In this document: positions 25,733 through 40,436 of the stretch, in pieces
Numbering within the stretch: position 1 is the first letter of the stretch
Layout: every line of letters starts with the position of its first letter
NCBI RefSeq assembly: GCF_000422565.1
Contig: NZ_AUMA01000015.1
Span: forward strand, 1 to 64,000
DNA from: Desulfovibrio aminophilus DSM 12254
GTDB lineage: Bacteria; Desulfobacterota; Desulfovibrionia; Desulfovibrionales; Desulfovibrionaceae
Direction: 5' to 3'
Length of the DNA: 64,000 bases
Made by a program: the position numbers and the translations under genes
Notes under the pieces: model-generated
Seen by the model: the letters and a program-made list of their open reading frames with translations, nothing else
Told to the model about the DNA's origin: nothing
Database searches by the model: none

Positions 25733-26908
25733 CTAGAGGGACACCAGGGCCTGGGAGGGGTCCACGCGCGACGCCTTCCAGGCCGGGAAGAGGGACGAAA
25801 GCACGCTGACCAGGGAGATGGCCGCCGCGGTCAGGGCCAGGGCCGCGAGGCTGAAGCCCGGGGTCACGCCCTCGGCGTGCAGGGCCGAGAGGATCGGCCC
25901 GGTGGCCGTGAAGCCGAACAGGTGGCCCGCCAGTCCCGAGGCCAGGCCCAGGAGCAGGGCCTCGAAGCTGAACAGGGAGAACACCGCCCCCCGGGAGAAA
26001 CCCAGGGAGCGCAGCAGGCCGATCTCGCGCACCCGCTCGTTGACCGAGGAGAGCATGCTGGCCGCGACCATGGCGCAGGCCGTGAGCAGGATGACCAAGC
26101 TCACCGCCAGGGCCATGTTCTTCACGAAGTGCACGGAATACATGCGCTGCTCCACCACCTGGCGCAGGGCCTTGACCTCGGTGTGGGGCAGGGCGGCGGC
26201 GAGCTGGGCCACGATGTCCTCGATGGGGCACCCGGCGCAGAGCGCGGCCACCTCCAGGAGGTTGGCCTTGCCCGGCAGCCCGGCCAGGGACTGGGCCAGG
26301 GGCAGGGTGGCGAAGGCCGCGTTGTCGTCGTCCCCGCCGGTTTCGGCCAGCACGCCGGACACGGTCAGGTCGCGGCCGGATATGCGCACCGCGCCGCCCG
26401 GGGCCAGGGGCCCGGCGGCTCCGCCCAGGCGGACGGCCGCATGGGAGCCGAGCAGGATCTGGGAGTCCGAGGCGGGCCAAGTCCCGGTCAGGCTCCAGTA
26501 GCCCTTGAGCAGCCGCTCCCGGTCGAAACGCACGCCGACCACGGCCAGGGCCGTGCCGTCGGACTCGGCCGGGACCACCAGCTTGGGCGCGACCACGCTC
26601 ACGTTCTCGCGCAGGGCGAGGCCGTCGATGGCCTTCTGGGCGGCGGCCTCGTCCAGGTACTCCAGGCCGTAGAGCATGTCGCCCAGGGCCAGGCCGCCGT
26701 AGCTCACGGTGAGCTTTTCCGATCGCGGGGTCACGAGGATGTTCGCGCCGTAGGCCGTGAGCTTTTTTTCGAGACTTTCGCCGACCACCCGGGAAACCCC
26801 GAAGAGGGCCGTGATGGCCGCCACGCCCAGGGTCAGGACCAGGGCCAGGAGCAGGTTCTTGAGCGGTTTGCGCCGCAGGTTGCGCAGCGGGATGGTGCAG
26901 AGGTTCAT
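25733..26908 (-). CDS. FtsX/MacB-type ABC permease
   Basis: A 391-residue permease with one N-terminal helix (about 17-38), a large periplasmic MacB-type domain (40-255) and three C-terminal helices, ending in 'SRVDPSQALVSL', a typical FtsX-family tail. The periplasmic domain carries 'ALCAGCPIEDIV', a C-x2-C pair that could bind metal or form a disulfide. Similar permeases accompany DUF2318 proteins in the P19 iron-uptake locus of Campylobacter. It follows the DUF2318 gene by 12 bases. Confidence 0.88.
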   Translation of the reverse strand: MNLCTIPLRNLRRKPLKNLLLALVLTLGVAAITALFGVSRVVGESLEKKLTAYGANILVTPRSEKLTVSYGGLALGDMLYGLEYLDEAAAQKAIDGLALRENVSVVAPKLVVPAESDGTALAVVGVRFDRERLLKGYWSLTGTWPASDSQILLGSHAAVRLGGAAGPLAPGGAVRISGRDLTVSGVLAETGGDDDNAAFATLPLAQSLAGLPGKANLLEVAALCAGCPIEDIVAQLAAALPHTEVKALRQVVEQRMYSVHFVKNMALAVSLVILLTACAMVAASMLSSVNERVREIGLLRSLGFSRGAVFSLFSFEALLLGLASGLAGHLFGFTATGPILSALHAEGVTPGFSLAALALTAAAISLVSVLSSLFPAWKASRVDPSQALVSL

Positions 26909-26920
26909 CTGTGCGCGGTC

Positions 26921-27379
26921 CTAGAAGTATCCGGCTCCGGCGGCGATGTCCGCGACCCTGATGACCAGATCGCCGCCCTCCACCGTCCGGTGCAGGGGCG
27001 CGGGATTGCAGCCGCCCTTGACCTCGTTGATGCGCGCGATGTGGAAGCGTTGGCCGCAGTTGTTGCAGACCATGTGTTCGCCGTCCTGGGAATAGCCCTT
27101 GCGCTCGGCGTAGCACACGTCGCAGGCGTCGAAGGCCGCCCGGGTCACGCCGTCGCGGCTCTGGACCACGAAGAAGGGCACGTTCTTGCCGTCCAGGTTC
27201 AGGGCGTAGCGACGGGCCGCGCCGTCTCGGAACTGGTCCAGGGACAGGCGCACCACGCCGTTGTCGGGCTGGACCATGCGCGGGCCGGTTTCGAAGAGGC
27301 CGAAAAAGGCGTGGGCCACGCCCGCCATCCCGAGGATGAGCAGGAGCAGGGTGAAGCGGAGGAGAAAACGTTTGGTCAT
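26921..27379 (-). CDS. DUF2318 exported cysteine-rich protein
   Basis: A 152-residue exported protein with a signal peptide (cleaved after AHA near residue 24) and the DUF2318 signature 'CDVCYAERKGYSQDGEHMVC' continuing to NNCG-RF. These cysteines are predicted to bind a metal. In other bacteria DUF2318 occurs in iron/copper P19-FTR1 loci with FtsX permeases and an ATPase, exactly the two genes downstream here, but no FTR1 or P19 gene is visible. Role in periplasmic iron handling is inferred from that context. Confidence 0.87.
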   Translation of the reverse strand: MTKRFLLRFTLLLLILGMAGVAHAFFGLFETGPRMVQPDNGVVRLSLDQFRDGAARRYALNLDGKNVPFFVVQSRDGVTRAAFDACDVCYAERKGYSQDGEHMVCNNCGQRFHIARINEVKGGCNPAPLHRTVEGGDLVIRVADIAAGAGYF

Positions 27380-27417
27380 CTGACGCCTCCGGGGGCGGGG
27401 GGGGAGATGTGGACGGA

Positions 27418-27437
27418 GGCCGGGAAAGCTCCCGGCC
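27418..27437 (-). terminator. Hairpin after zraP-like gene
   Basis: GGCCGGGA / TCCCGGCC stem with a four-base AAGC loop, 19 bases beyond the stop. No T-run. Confidence 0.4.
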
Positions 27438-27455
27438 CGCCGTCCGAAGGGGCGT

Positions 27456-27962
27456 CTACCAGCGGCCGCAACCGCCGCCGGCGCCCATGCCGTAACCGTG
27501 GCCGTAGCCGTGGCCGTAGCCCATGCCGGAGCCGCGACCGTAACCCATGCCGTAGCCGCGGCCGGGGCCCATCTCGATGCCGGTCTCCTTCTCGACCTTG
27601 GCCCGGAAGGCCTCGCCCTGGTCGAAGAGCTTGCCGCGCAGGGTGGTGATGTCCTTGGCCAGGGTGCGCACGGCGTTCAGGTCCGGGCTCTGCTGACGCT
27701 CAACGGCGTCCAGCTCGGCCTGCTTGACGAAGAGTTCGTCGCGCAGGGGCTGCACGGCCTTGCGGTGCTCGGCGAAGAGCTTGTCCACGGCGGCTCGCTT
27801 CTCGGGGGTGAGCTGTGTGTACTGGTCCATCATGCCGTAGCCGGGGCCTCTTCCGTACATGCCGTGTCCAGGGCCTCCGAAGGCGTAGGAAGCGGCGGCC
27901 AGGCCGAGCACCATGCTCAGGGCCAAACCCACGTACCAGGCGGAACGGGTGGCGGTCTTCAT
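27456..27962 (-). CDS. zraP: ZraP-like periplasmic metal-binding chaperone
   Basis: A 168-residue exported protein of the Spy/CpxP/ZraP class: signal peptide cleaved after SYA, a helical LTxxQ-like core ('YTQLTPEKRAAVDKLFAEHR') and a histidine/glycine/methionine-rich C-terminus (MGYGHGYGHGYGMGAGGG) suited to binding Zn or Cu. ZraP buffers periplasmic zinc and damps the ZraS kinase. Start has AAGGAGG upstream. A sigma-54 promoter 51-68 bases upstream matches the sigma-54 control known for zraP in enterobacteria. No zraSR genes are in the window. Confidence 0.85.
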   Translation of the reverse strand: MKTATRSAWYVGLALSMVLGLAAASYAFGGPGHGMYGRGPGYGMMDQYTQLTPEKRAAVDKLFAEHRKAVQPLRDELFVKQAELDAVERQQSPDLNAVRTLAKDITTLRGKLFDQGEAFRAKVEKETGIEMGPGRGYGMGYGRGSGMGYGHGYGHGYGMGAGGGCGRW

Positions 27963-28012
27963 CGTGAAATCCTCCTTGGCCGGGTGAGCGGCCGTTTGTT
28001 TTGTCCTGGATG

Positions 28013-28030
28013 AAGCATGGACCGTGCCAA
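28013..28030 (-). promoter_or_regulatory. Sigma-54 promoter of the zraP-like gene
   Basis: Minus strand TTGGCACGGTCCATGCTT has TGGCAC, five bases, then ATGC, with GG and GC exactly 10 bases apart. Confidence 0.75.
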
Positions 28031-28081: not shown

Positions 28082-28128
28082 ATGTGCAATATCCAGCACA
28101 TGAATTCATGCAACATTCTGCACATTGC
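28082..28128. promoter_or_regulatory. Palindromic upstream activator sites for the zraP promoter
   Basis: ATGTGC-N8-GCACAT (28082-28101), an overlapping perfect CATGAATTCATG (28099-28110) and a further CTGCACATTGC (28118-28128). They lie about 55-100 bases upstream of the -24 element, the usual position for a sigma-54 activator. Confidence 0.5.
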
Positions 28129-38654: not shown

Positions 38655-39176
38655 ATGAAAAACACAAATAATCGTATCCTGGTGCTGGGAGTGGGCAACA
38701 TCCTGCGCAGCGACGAAGGGGTGGGCGTGCGCGCCGTGGAGAAGCTGGCGCGGGAGTATGTCTTCTCGGAGAACGTGACGCTTCTGGACGGCGGCACCCA
38801 GGGCATGCTGCTCATGGGCCCGATCATGGAGGCCGACGTTCTGGTGGTGGCCGACGCCGTGCTCGGCGGCGGGGAGCCCGGCTCCATCTACCGGCTCACG
38901 GGCGCGGACCTGCCGCTGCGCATCGATCCGGGCAAATCCCCGCACCAAGCCGATCTCCTGGACACCCTGACCTACTGCGACGTGCTCGGCGCGCTGCCGG
39001 AGCTGGTGGTCCTGGGCGTGGAGCCCCAGGACATGGACGGCGTGGGCCTGGAACTGACGCCCGTGGTGGCCCGTCGGCTGCCGGACCTAGTCCGTCTTCT
39101 GCTGCGCGAGATCGAGCGCCTGGGCGGGGCCTGGTCCCCGGCGGAGCGCGATGCCGAGGCCTTGGGCGCGGGCTGA
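38655..39176 (+). CDS. [NiFe]-hydrogenase maturation protease, HyaD/HycI type
   Basis: A 173-residue endopeptidase that trims the C-terminus of a [NiFe]-hydrogenase large subunit after nickel insertion. 'ILVLGVGNILRSDEGVGVRA' holds the nickel-sensing glutamate, and 'ADVLVVADAVLGGGEPGSIY' the conserved aspartate. No hydrogenase structural gene is in the window, so it is orphaned here. The ATG at 38655 lacks a clear Shine-Dalgarno; the open frame upstream runs through AT-rich palindromes and is not family-like. Confidence 0.87.
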   Translation: MKNTNNRILVLGVGNILRSDEGVGVRAVEKLAREYVFSENVTLLDGGTQGMLLMGPIMEADVLVVADAVLGGGEPGSIYRLTGADLPLRIDPGKSPHQADLLDTLTYCDVLGALPELVVLGVEPQDMDGVGLELTPVVARRLPDLVRLLLREIERLGGAWSPAERDAEALGAG

Positions 39177-39208
39177 TGATCCGGTCCCGCCGAGACTGGT
39201 TGCACAAA

Positions 39209-39239
39209 TAAGAAGGGGCCCTTTTGGGGCCCCTTCTTA
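39209..39239 (-). terminator. Hairpin terminator, leftward
   Basis: Stem TAAGAAGGGGCCC / GGGCCCCTTCTTA with a five-base loop. Minus-strand continuation TTTG is U-rich; the plus strand has none. It could also protect the 3' end of the hydrogenase protease message. Confidence 0.7.
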
Positions 39240-39305
39240 CGGAGAGAGAGGAGTTTGGGAAGGAAACGTGTGACTGGGTGAGGCTCGCTGTGCTGTGCCT
39301 GTTGA
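39209..39305 (-). ncRNA. Candidate sigma-54-dependent small RNA, about 100 nt
   Basis: No gene is annotated between the hydrogenase protease and the nucleoside-recognition gene, yet a sigma-54 promoter (39314-39332) fires leftward into a segment ending in a 13-base-pair hairpin (39209-39239) followed by TTTG. The intervening RNA is C/U-rich and unstructured, with CUCCUCUCUCUCC and UUUCCUUCCC, which are complementary to Shine-Dalgarno sequences, as in many base-pairing sRNAs. This is prediction only; the start (near 39303-39306) and end are estimates. Confidence 0.5.
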
Positions 39306-39313
39306 TTCGAAGA

Positions 39314-39332
39314 TATGCGAGTCCCGTGCCAA
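39314..39332 (-). promoter_or_regulatory. Sigma-54 promoter of the candidate small RNA
   Basis: Minus strand TTGGCACGGGACTCGCATA has TGGCAC, then GC exactly 10 bases after GG. It points away from any neighbouring gene start. Confidence 0.65.
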
Positions 39333-39397
39333 AATATGCTAAACACTGGAATAATTGGATTTCACAAATTATTGTGTGTTGCCGACCTGCGCTGTGC

Positions 39398-39445
39398 GTG
39401 CAATGTGCTGCACAAGTGTTGCACTTGTGTCTGCACATATGTGCA
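39398..39445. promoter_or_regulatory. Cluster of TGCACA palindromes upstream of the small-RNA promoter
   Basis: GCAATGTGC (39400-39408), CACAAGTG-TTG-CACTTGTG (39411-39429) and the perfect TGCACATATGTGCA (39432-39445). They sit about 70-115 bases upstream of the -24 element, as enhancer sites of a sigma-54 activator do. Confidence 0.5.
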
Positions 39446-39479
39446 ACCGGATCGGCTTCATTGCACGGACGACGGGCCG

Positions 39480-40436
39480 TCAACCCAGGAGGGCGTAGAG
39501 CGCGGCCACCAGGGCCAGGGTCGCGGCGCGCAGGGCCTGGTTGTGCAGGATGAGGCGCACGGCCAGGCGGGTCTTGAAGATTCCGGCGTAGTAGGGGAAC
39601 TGGTGGCGCACCGCGCGCATGGGCGTGGAGAGGATGGCTCCCACCAGGAGCGCCAGGACCATCTCCTTGACGCTCAGGGCCCCGGCGGTGAGCAGGGCCC
39701 CGGCCGCGGCGAAGCCCGCCGTGGTCTCCGCCGCCAGTTGGAAGGCCACCACGCCCACGGCCTCGGGCGGCAGCCAGGAGAGCAGCGCGCTGTGGCTCAT
39801 GGCCGACTCGACCATGTCGAACACTCCCCAACGCTTGAGGAAGAAGAACAGCGTGTAGACCGGCACGGTGATGAAGATGAGCCGGGGCAGGCGCTTCTTG
39901 AAGCGCTCCACTGTCTTGCGCAGGGCCGGTCCCAGGCCCTTGAAGCCGCCGTCGTTGAGCAGGCAGACCACACAGCCCTCGGGCAGGGGGGGCAGGGTGA
40001 GCCGTCCCCAACCCACGATGACCGCCGTGCGGATGAGCGCCGAGAGCACGGTCAGGCCCACGTAGACGAAGGCCGCCTCGCGCAGGAAGGGCACGGCCAG
40101 GGCCAGCACCGTGGGCAGGTGCAGGAAGTTGGTGGGCAGGCTGTTGAAGAGGTTGGAGAGAATCACCTCCCGCTCGTTCATCTTGCCCTGCTCGTAGGCT
40201 TCCGCCAGCATGGAGTTGGCCGCCGCGCCGGAGAAGAAGGCCATGCTGAAGCTGGCCCCGGAGATGTCCTGGAGCCGGGCCAGACGGATGAGCGGCGCGG
40301 CCACCTTGGCCACGGCCCGGGTCCAGTTCAGGGACTCGATGAGGTTGCCCACGAAGAGACCCACGCTCACCGCGGCGCAGAGGCGGAGGAGCGGCCAGGC
40401 CAGCCCGTTCCAGAGGACGTGTGCGTTCAGTTCCAT
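39480..40436 (-). CDS. Nucleoside-recognition (Gate) domain membrane protein
   Basis: A 318-residue membrane protein with about eight helices and two Gate-type segments ('GASFSMAFFSGAAANSMLAE' and 'AFQLAAETTAGFAAAGALLT'), related to SpmA/SpmB and nucleoside transporters. Function is not established. It starts 10 bases beyond the panB stop and is probably translated from the panB message. Confidence 0.82.
   Translation of the reverse strand: MELNAHVLWNGLAWPLLRLCAAVSVGLFVGNLIESLNWTRAVAKVAAPLIRLARLQDISGASFSMAFFSGAAANSMLAEAYEQGKMNEREVILSNLFNSLPTNFLHLPTVLALAVPFLREAAFVYVGLTVLSALIRTAVIVGWGRLTLPPLPEGCVVCLLNDGGFKGLGPALRKTVERFKKRLPRLIFITVPVYTLFFFLKRWGVFDMVESAMSHSALLSWLPPEAVGVVAFQLAAETTAGFAAAGALLTAGALSVKEMVLALLVGAILSTPMRAVRHQFPYYAGIFKTRLAVRLILHNQALRAATLALVAALYALLG

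Follow-up and report, generated by a model that had tools for sequence, protein, structure and literature searches.

Several noncoding RNAs under the control of sigma-54 have been described in the order to which the organism studied here belongs. The published account of Desulfovibrio vulgaris Hildenborough lists four ncRNAs under sigma-54 activators, including one upstream of DVU3282 whose response regulator, DVU1419, is listed for both envelope stress and posttranscriptional regulation; it also lists the regulator DVU3381 for envelope stress, and the motifs that it gives have TGT and ACA half-sites 9, 11 or 12 bp apart (PMC4641369). An expressed sRNA under DVU0679 is described elsewhere (PMC3333781), and for Oleidesulfovibrio alaskensis G20 a computational survey of ncRNAs gives a list of Rfam families (PMC11124144). 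The window, by which we mean the whole 64,000-nucleotide stretch analysed here, carries on its minus strand a unit with a TGT-N12-ACA arrangement, which falls within the published D. vulgaris half-site spacings (PMC4641369). The window's host and D. vulgaris belong to the same order, and the likeness is one of published descriptions rather than of compared ncRNA sequences. Two of the D. vulgaris ncRNAs are described as lying downstream of a regulator gene, whereas no activator gene is seen beside the RNA unit in the window.

Among more distant systems, GlmY of the enterobacteria, which is controlled by QseE/QseF (GlrR), is likewise described as a sigma-54 small RNA with two-component upstream sites and a tie to the cell envelope (PMC6075780, PMC8745638), though it differs in regulator, RNA and host and acts via RapZ and GlmZ (PMC7073468). 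The Qrr RNAs under LuxO are similar in combining sigma-54 with response-regulator enhancer control of an approximately 100-nt RNA (PMC10162802). Pxr of Myxococcus is a 108-nt RNA gene with a sigma-54 promoter that keeps its place in the genome while other neighbours change, but according to the same description it lies beside the sigma-54 response regulator gene nla19, folds as a triple stem-loop and has a developmental role (PMC5568312). As far as these accounts go, the closest systems that have been studied are Pxr and the QseEF-controlled GlmY. In the literature on sigma-54 and small RNAs in Desulfovibrio and its relatives, represented mostly by titles and abstracts, no paper on the unit was among the matches listed.

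Architecture of the minus-strand unit

The unit extends from 39446 to 39202 on the minus strand, with its parts in the order enhancer cluster, sigma-54 promoter, C/U-rich stretch and 14-bp hairpin:

39394..39446, minus strand: predicted enhancer cluster (UAS), with the palindrome TGCACATATGTGCA, GTGCA half-sites and TTGTGCA-N6-TGCAC
39316..39331, minus strand: sigma-54 promoter TGGCACGGGACTCGCA (GG-N10-GC), with the same spacing in the genus relatives G001 and G002
39202..39305, minus strand: predicted small RNA of about 100 nt, its start inferred from the promoter and its end from the hairpin
39241..39292, minus strand: unpaired, conserved C/U-rich RNA core with TTTCCTTCCC (39266-39257) and CTCCTCTCTCTCC (39253-39241)
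39208..39240, minus strand: terminator-type hairpin of 14 pairs with an A-rich 5' arm and a U-rich 3' arm

The sequence-only reading had placed a sigma-54-dependent small RNA with its own enhancers in a gap between convergent genes, and what it observed there holds. The gap lies between the 3' end, at 39176, of a plus-strand hydrogenase maturation protease gene and the end, at 39480, of a minus-strand gene (39480-40436) upstream of the RNA unit for a nucleoside-recognition-type membrane protein, whose Pfam Gate score of 26.4 bits is slightly under the cut-off of 29.6. At gathering score Rfam has no family at 39202-39446; its sole match in the window is a cobalamin riboswitch (RF00174, 38182-38386, minus strand, 110.8 bits) preceding a large gene, also on the minus strand, that we take to resemble anaerobic ribonucleotide reductase, and its sole match across ten related loci is a glycine riboswitch in Halodesulfovibrio (L227, 174-274, plus strand), away from the unit.

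The palindromic TGCACA enhancer-like sites are present as claimed. TGCACATATGTGCA at 39432-39445 is a perfect palindrome with a single match at up to 1 mismatch across the 3.42 Mb genome, and it was not detected in G001. Within the 148 bases ahead of the promoter there are 6 GTGCA/TGCAC half-sites, a count reached by 6 of 1000 dinucleotide shuffles, and half-site density across the window peaks in these bases. At 39415-39396 on the minus strand stands TTGTGCA-N6-TGCAC, an arrangement common to the zraP promoters discussed below. Its full form, TTGTGCA-N6-TGCACAA, has 5 matches at up to 3 mismatches in the window, compared with 1.3 expected and with 1 of 100 shuffles reaching 5; two are at 28082-28125, one is at the RNA gene, and the others are at 39541 and 47229.

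The promoter, at 39331-39316, has the exact GG-N10-GC spacing predicted and differs from the consensus TGGCACRNNNNTTGCW by 1 mismatch, although taken alone this match is within chance, as the window has 8 matches at up to 2 mismatches versus 13.8 expected. Sigma-54 transcripts start 12 nt after the C of the -12 element, and this rule gives a predicted start of 39305, inside the interval 39303-39306 that had been proposed. Downstream, both of the anti-Shine-Dalgarno stretches named by the earlier reading are present in the C/U-rich core, the hairpin that it counted as 13 bp has 14 pairs, and the whole-RNA folding z-score is -3.7. The claim that U-rich bases follow the hairpin stands if they are counted from the GC core (UUCUUAUUU) but is weak after the full stem (AUUUGUGC); a simple terminator scan leaves the hairpin unreported, its U-rich part overlapping the stem. 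The view that no protein gene follows the promoter agrees with the positions of the start-type triplets in 39305-39201, which are two, TTG and GTG, both within the 3' tail UUUGUGC, with none ahead of it. This tail (39202-39208, minus strand) is invariant in the three species of the genus and resembles an enhancer half-site, and a GCACA close to the RNA 5' end is a possible pairing partner for it in G002.

Conservation in the genus and units in other genera

Of 99 genomes searched at the DNA level (the organism's own and others of its genus, family and order), 4 gave a match, namely the window's own genome (G000), its two genus relatives (G001 and G002) and, over just 29 bases, G071, and the unit is present in 3/3 available genus genomes. 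Identity is highest in the RNA core (39292-39241), at 52/52 positions to G002 (100%) and 50/53 columns to G001 (94%). For G002 and G001, respectively, it is 89% and 83% in the promoter (39333-39316), 81% and 64% in the enhancer cluster, 62% and 40% in the enhancer-promoter spacer, and 50% and 40% in the 3' flank. The promoter is kept in all three species, as is TTGTGCA-N6-TGCACAA at the RNA gene, with 2, 1 and 2 mismatches in G000, G002 and G001 and scores that shuffles reach 3, 0 and 0 times in 300. In G002 one base is added per arm, which lengthens the hairpin by a G-C pair, and the loops differ between species, so that the stem is kept through paired insertion and loop changes. Past the hairpin the three sequences do not align, and in G001 a PIN-domain frame follows. 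The outcome that would have counted against the sequence-only reading, a loss of promoter and hairpin between conserved flanks, is thus the reverse of what is seen: both stay while the sequence past the hairpin changes, which marks the RNA gene as a unit of its own, conserved above its surroundings. On this comparison it is highly probable that the locus is a small RNA gene, and we are a shade more confident still that such a gene would be under sigma-54 control.

A covariance model of 39292-39202 matched 34 of 288 family genomes at E <=0.01, with scores of 125, 119 and 112 bits in the three genus genomes and no more than 30.7 bits elsewhere. The 27 matches outside the genus that were read are mostly terminator-like hairpins and were not taken as relatives, and none has a promoter scoring at least 10/12 within 200 bases upstream; the match L029 in G275 lies within a syntenic unit, and its promoter is further upstream. 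L213 and L230 have terminator-like hairpins of the form CGCCGTCAT...CTGACGGCG with CCTTCCTCC in the loop, possibly an anti-Shine-Dalgarno loop.

Outside the genus, units of this kind can be found by position. The upstream membrane protein gene occurs in 96/119 sampled family genomes, and the DNA behind it was read in 70 of those 96 (30 + 40 places). A forward sigma-54 promoter with a TGTGCA/TGCACA cluster is present at 9 of the 70 (8/30 + 1/40), in 3 genera: 3/3 genomes of the window's genus, 2/3 of g14 and 4/6 of g5. In the remaining two g5 genomes the unit lies about 12 kb (G278) and about 72 kb (G270) from the upstream gene, and further cases behind the same gene are those of G275 and Salidesulfovibrio brasiliensis (L204). 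BLAST with the G275 unit matched 31/36 g5 genomes, G276 and G301 over short stretches only. G275 and a Pseudodesulfovibrio record (L229) have identical units, and g5 is therefore termed Pseudodesulfovibrio-type, whereas Salidesulfovibrio and G269 (g5) are counted as one genome because their regulator coordinates agree at two places. Nitratidesulfovibrio and similar records also have units (L194, L214, L228, L235, L262). The window unit and the Pseudodesulfovibrio-type units agree in genomic position, in their enhancer half-sites and promoter, and in the way they end. The comparison does not support homology between the window RNA and the 3' part of the Pseudodesulfovibrio-type units, whose similarity is no greater than composition gives (187/300 shuffles reach the score).

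In all 31 Pseudodesulfovibrio-type units that were read, an open frame of 62-68 codons begins at an ATG that stands 11-13 nt past the -12 GC, which by the 12-nt rule suggests a leaderless mRNA. These 31 units come from 29 g5 loci (L163-L191), one being at a contig edge (L181) and two holding tandem pairs (L187, L189), and 30 are distinct, L163 and L164 being identical. The frame begins MIDAVTVTLIILxxLLRRSLLTDPDA... and specifies a membrane protein of about 63 aa, one example of which has no Pfam or NCBIfam family; behind the frame come a CCUCC-rich 3' part and a hairpin of the GGCCGC type. Across 28 units (L181 being left out, as was the second unit of each tandem pair in L187 and L189) the frame has no stop in 1805 codons, compared with 63 and 31 stops in the other two frames of 1777 codons each. 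Median pN/pS in the same units is 0.81 overall versus 0.95 and 0.90 in the other frames, but it is 0.58 in the first 25 codons and 0.88 in the remainder, so only the N-terminal membrane segment shows clear protein constraint. A corresponding ATG is absent from the Salidesulfovibrio unit. L120 (G047) and L187 (G006) have two sigma-54 units in tandem within a single intergenic region, both units containing the microprotein frame.

The CcsR1-4 RNAs of Rhodobacter are processed by RNase E and have other promoters. As described, they arise from the ccaF1 3' UTR and resemble the Pseudodesulfovibrio-type units in joining a stress-related small-protein gene to 3' UTR RNA elements (PMC8625941). One rather speculative reading, to which we give limited credence, is that a single stress-controlled sigma-54 unit exists in two forms, a noncoding RNA of about 100 nt and a leaderless microprotein mRNA with a CCUCC-rich tail, the RNA gene having gained or lost its coding half, and that the C-rich part might, without Hfq, imitate the 16S rRNA tail and so damp translation in envelope stress.

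ZraP-like genes and the candidate activator

The window contains a second enhancer-promoter arrangement, which lies before a ZraP-like gene:

28082..28125, minus strand: second enhancer pair, ATGTGCA-N6-AGCACAT and TCATGCA-N6-TGCACAT (best N6 match 3 mismatches, 0/300 shuffles)
28014..28029, minus strand: sigma-54 promoter TGGCACGGTCCATGCT of the ZraP-like gene
27456..27962, minus strand: ZraP/Spy-like periplasmic protein (Pfam Metal_resist), a second ZraP-like gene, presumed co-regulated
26921-27379, minus strand: FtrD-like gene, behind the ZraP-like gene
25733-26908, minus strand: MacB/FtsX-like permease gene, behind the ZraP-like gene

An arrangement like that at 25733-28029, beside an RsbRD_N-like gene, is seemingly present in Humidesulfovibrio L199, as judged by eye.

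Desulfovibrionales and deltaproteobacteria make up a small part of bacterial species. A scan for enhancer-promoter arrays in genome_contigs, with one genome per species for 84,980 species, gave 70 loci, and 24 of these, all of which were read, have titles from one or the other group. Some of the 24 have apparent noncoding RNAs (Nitratidesulfovibrio, Humidesulfovibrio, Halodesulfovibrio and others), and other arrays drive proteins, including ZraP-like ones (L196, L212, L233) and, presumably, a SHOCT-type protein (L252). At L196 and L233 the ZraP-like gene is clustered with a kinase, in L196 containing Pfam HisKA and HATPase_c, and with a sigma-54 response regulator. Among 26 handles searched (two of which are the same genome), 22 further genomes have matches to this regulator at 62-72% identity; three matches are partial, and the one in the window's genome is G000:C5:31330-32679. 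The regulator was not found in the G001 draft, which is 87% complete, nor in G334, and it is present in G055, G276 and G301, none of which showed a full unit.

Eight zraP regions were fetched, of which contig L295 is too short, leaving seven. At all seven, including G000, the regulator gene is preceded at 2.4-3.6 kb by a ZraP-like gene with a half-site cluster and sigma-54 promoter, and a frame with histidine-kinase motifs stands between the two, as it also does at L196 and L233; ZraP-like gene, kinase and sigma-54 response regulator are thus found together in a ZraSR-type grouping. The N6 arrangement at zraP has 0 mismatches in G000 and G002, 1 in G015 and G275 and 2 in G006 (each 0/300 shuffles), and 4 in G278 and G268 (54 and 45 of 300), its score thereby beating shuffles in 5/7 loci. 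Among the units, it has 1-2 mismatches in g14, Nitratidesulfovibrio-like and Humidesulfovibrio cases (0-3 of 300 shuffles) and 3 mismatches in three g5 units (22, 9 and 4 of 300), and for Salidesulfovibrio (282 of 300) and Halodesulfovibrio (116 of 300), whose units do contain half-sites, it is at shuffle level.

Comparison thus reveals an enhancer-promoter arrangement common to the RNA gene and the ZraP-like genes, which points to a ZraSR-like system and, with it, to envelope or metal stress. The NCBIfam ZraP and ZraR models score 52.9 and 413.7 bits, under cut-offs of 200 and 760, and the regulator is therefore called ZraR-like and not ZraR. From the shared sites, the activator of the RNA gene is probably this ZraR-like response regulator.

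Pairing, targets and rival explanations

We lean toward a reading in which the locus is a sigma-54-dependent small RNA gene of an envelope-stress regulon, with ZraR-like control and Hfq-free pairing; its transcription, regulator, signal and base pairing we infer from sequence. A ZraS-like sensor kinase would phosphorylate the ZraR-like enhancer-binding response regulator, which would bind sites of the TTGTGCA-N6-TGCACAA type, placed about 90-140 bp ahead of the start, and drive sigma-54 RNA polymerase to make a noncoding RNA of about 100 nt ending at the GC hairpin, and which would also drive the genes for ZraP-like periplasmic proteins. The invariant single-stranded C/U-rich arm of the RNA might then pair, without Hfq, with purine-rich ribosome-binding regions, lowering the translation of some mRNAs during envelope repair.

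The arm is both unpaired and the most constrained part of the RNA, which suits such pairing, and CUCCUCUC and UUUCCUUCCC are candidate segments for it. Hfq (PF17209) was found in 0/8 genomes, with 5/14 for the control rings; the Qrr small RNAs of quorum sensing are Hfq-dependent. When the three genus genomes were searched with the complement of a 16-mer, allowing up to 3 mismatches, G000, G001 and G002 had 22, 11 and 21 sites (counts that include the RNA gene itself, once per genome), no clear excess over the 14, 17 and 14 sites of the reversed control. Among the 27 inspected of the 51 sites outside the RNA gene, five lie 3 to 18 nt before a possible start with a frame of at least 60 codons (L305, L310, L312, L317, L329), and only L317 (G002, 3 mismatches) has a true-looking gene start, with a plausible ribosome-binding site, making it a weak candidate; Pfam has no family for its protein, and the sites listed for G000 and G001 include no matching one. 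The partial complement of the RNA core in L317 is around position 1500 on the minus strand (G002:C7:33213-33228), and the gene starts MIERITWNNETLG. Of the earlier proposal of a base-pairing RNA under an activator, then, the conserved sigma-54 small RNA gene with its own enhancers is supported, and the pairing does not gain from either test, given no target excess and anti-Shine-Dalgarno 5-mers at shuffle level in the window RNA (2 vs 1.9 in shuffles, with 273/500 reaching it). Pairing at ribosome-binding sites is accordingly put at slightly under an even chance.

The main rival to such pairing is a C-rich decoy or rRNA-tail mimic, in which the RNA would sequester a protein or imitate the 16S rRNA tail for many mRNAs, without specific targets. 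C-rich stretches do recur, the eight genomes searched for Hfq yielded none, and with transcript lengths of 100-330 nt set by eye, anti-Shine-Dalgarno 5-mers exceed shuffles in 8/17 units: three of g5 (3, 0 and 0 of 500 shuffles reaching the count), Humidesulfovibrio (4), Salidesulfovibrio (1), E02 (3) and, with a weak excess, two of g14 (33 and 45). Enrichment is unsupported in the other 9/17, which are the three of the window's genus, two Nitratidesulfovibrio-like units, C06, TD116, Halodesulfovibrio and SRR6201695; five ZraP controls show no excess. Invariance, moreover, covers nearly the whole 52-nt core and not just the C-runs, and since CsrA targets are recognized by GGA, which the RNA lacks, a CsrA decoy is unlikely; overall, a decoy or mimic is an improbable alternative. 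We rate as equally improbable the same sigma-54 small RNA gene acting under a different enhancer-binding protein. The genome has 34 sigma-54 activator-domain matches to choose from, site spacing differs among units, and regulator and unit co-occur imperfectly, but TTGTGCA-N6-TGCACAA precedes both zraP (G000, G002, G015, G275, G006) and the RNA (G000, G002, G001) with 0-2 mismatches, and zraP is clustered with the ZraR-like regulator gene.

Two further explanations dispense with a small RNA altogether, and both are very unlikely. An unrecognised short peptide driven by the promoter would recall the open frame of 62-68 aa in 31/31 units of the sister genus, yet the window RNA offers no start codon before its 3' tail and reaches its hairpin about 65 nt after the start, with a convergent gene behind. 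The remaining suggestion is a chance promoter-like match in front of a hairpin that simply terminates the hydrogenase maturation protease gene; the promoter match is within chance by itself and a hairpin can act in both directions, but G001 and G002 keep promoter and hairpin together with other sequence past the hairpin, and on the three-species alignment we reject a chance hairpin or mere protease terminator.

The small RNA gene under ZraR-like control that we favour would thus give sulfate reducers a small RNA with a predicted promoter, activator, signal and set of co-regulated genes, and would do so in genomes that yielded no Hfq. Should the two forms, noncoding and microprotein, really descend from one unit, they would also provide a natural series on how RNAs gain or lose coding sequence.
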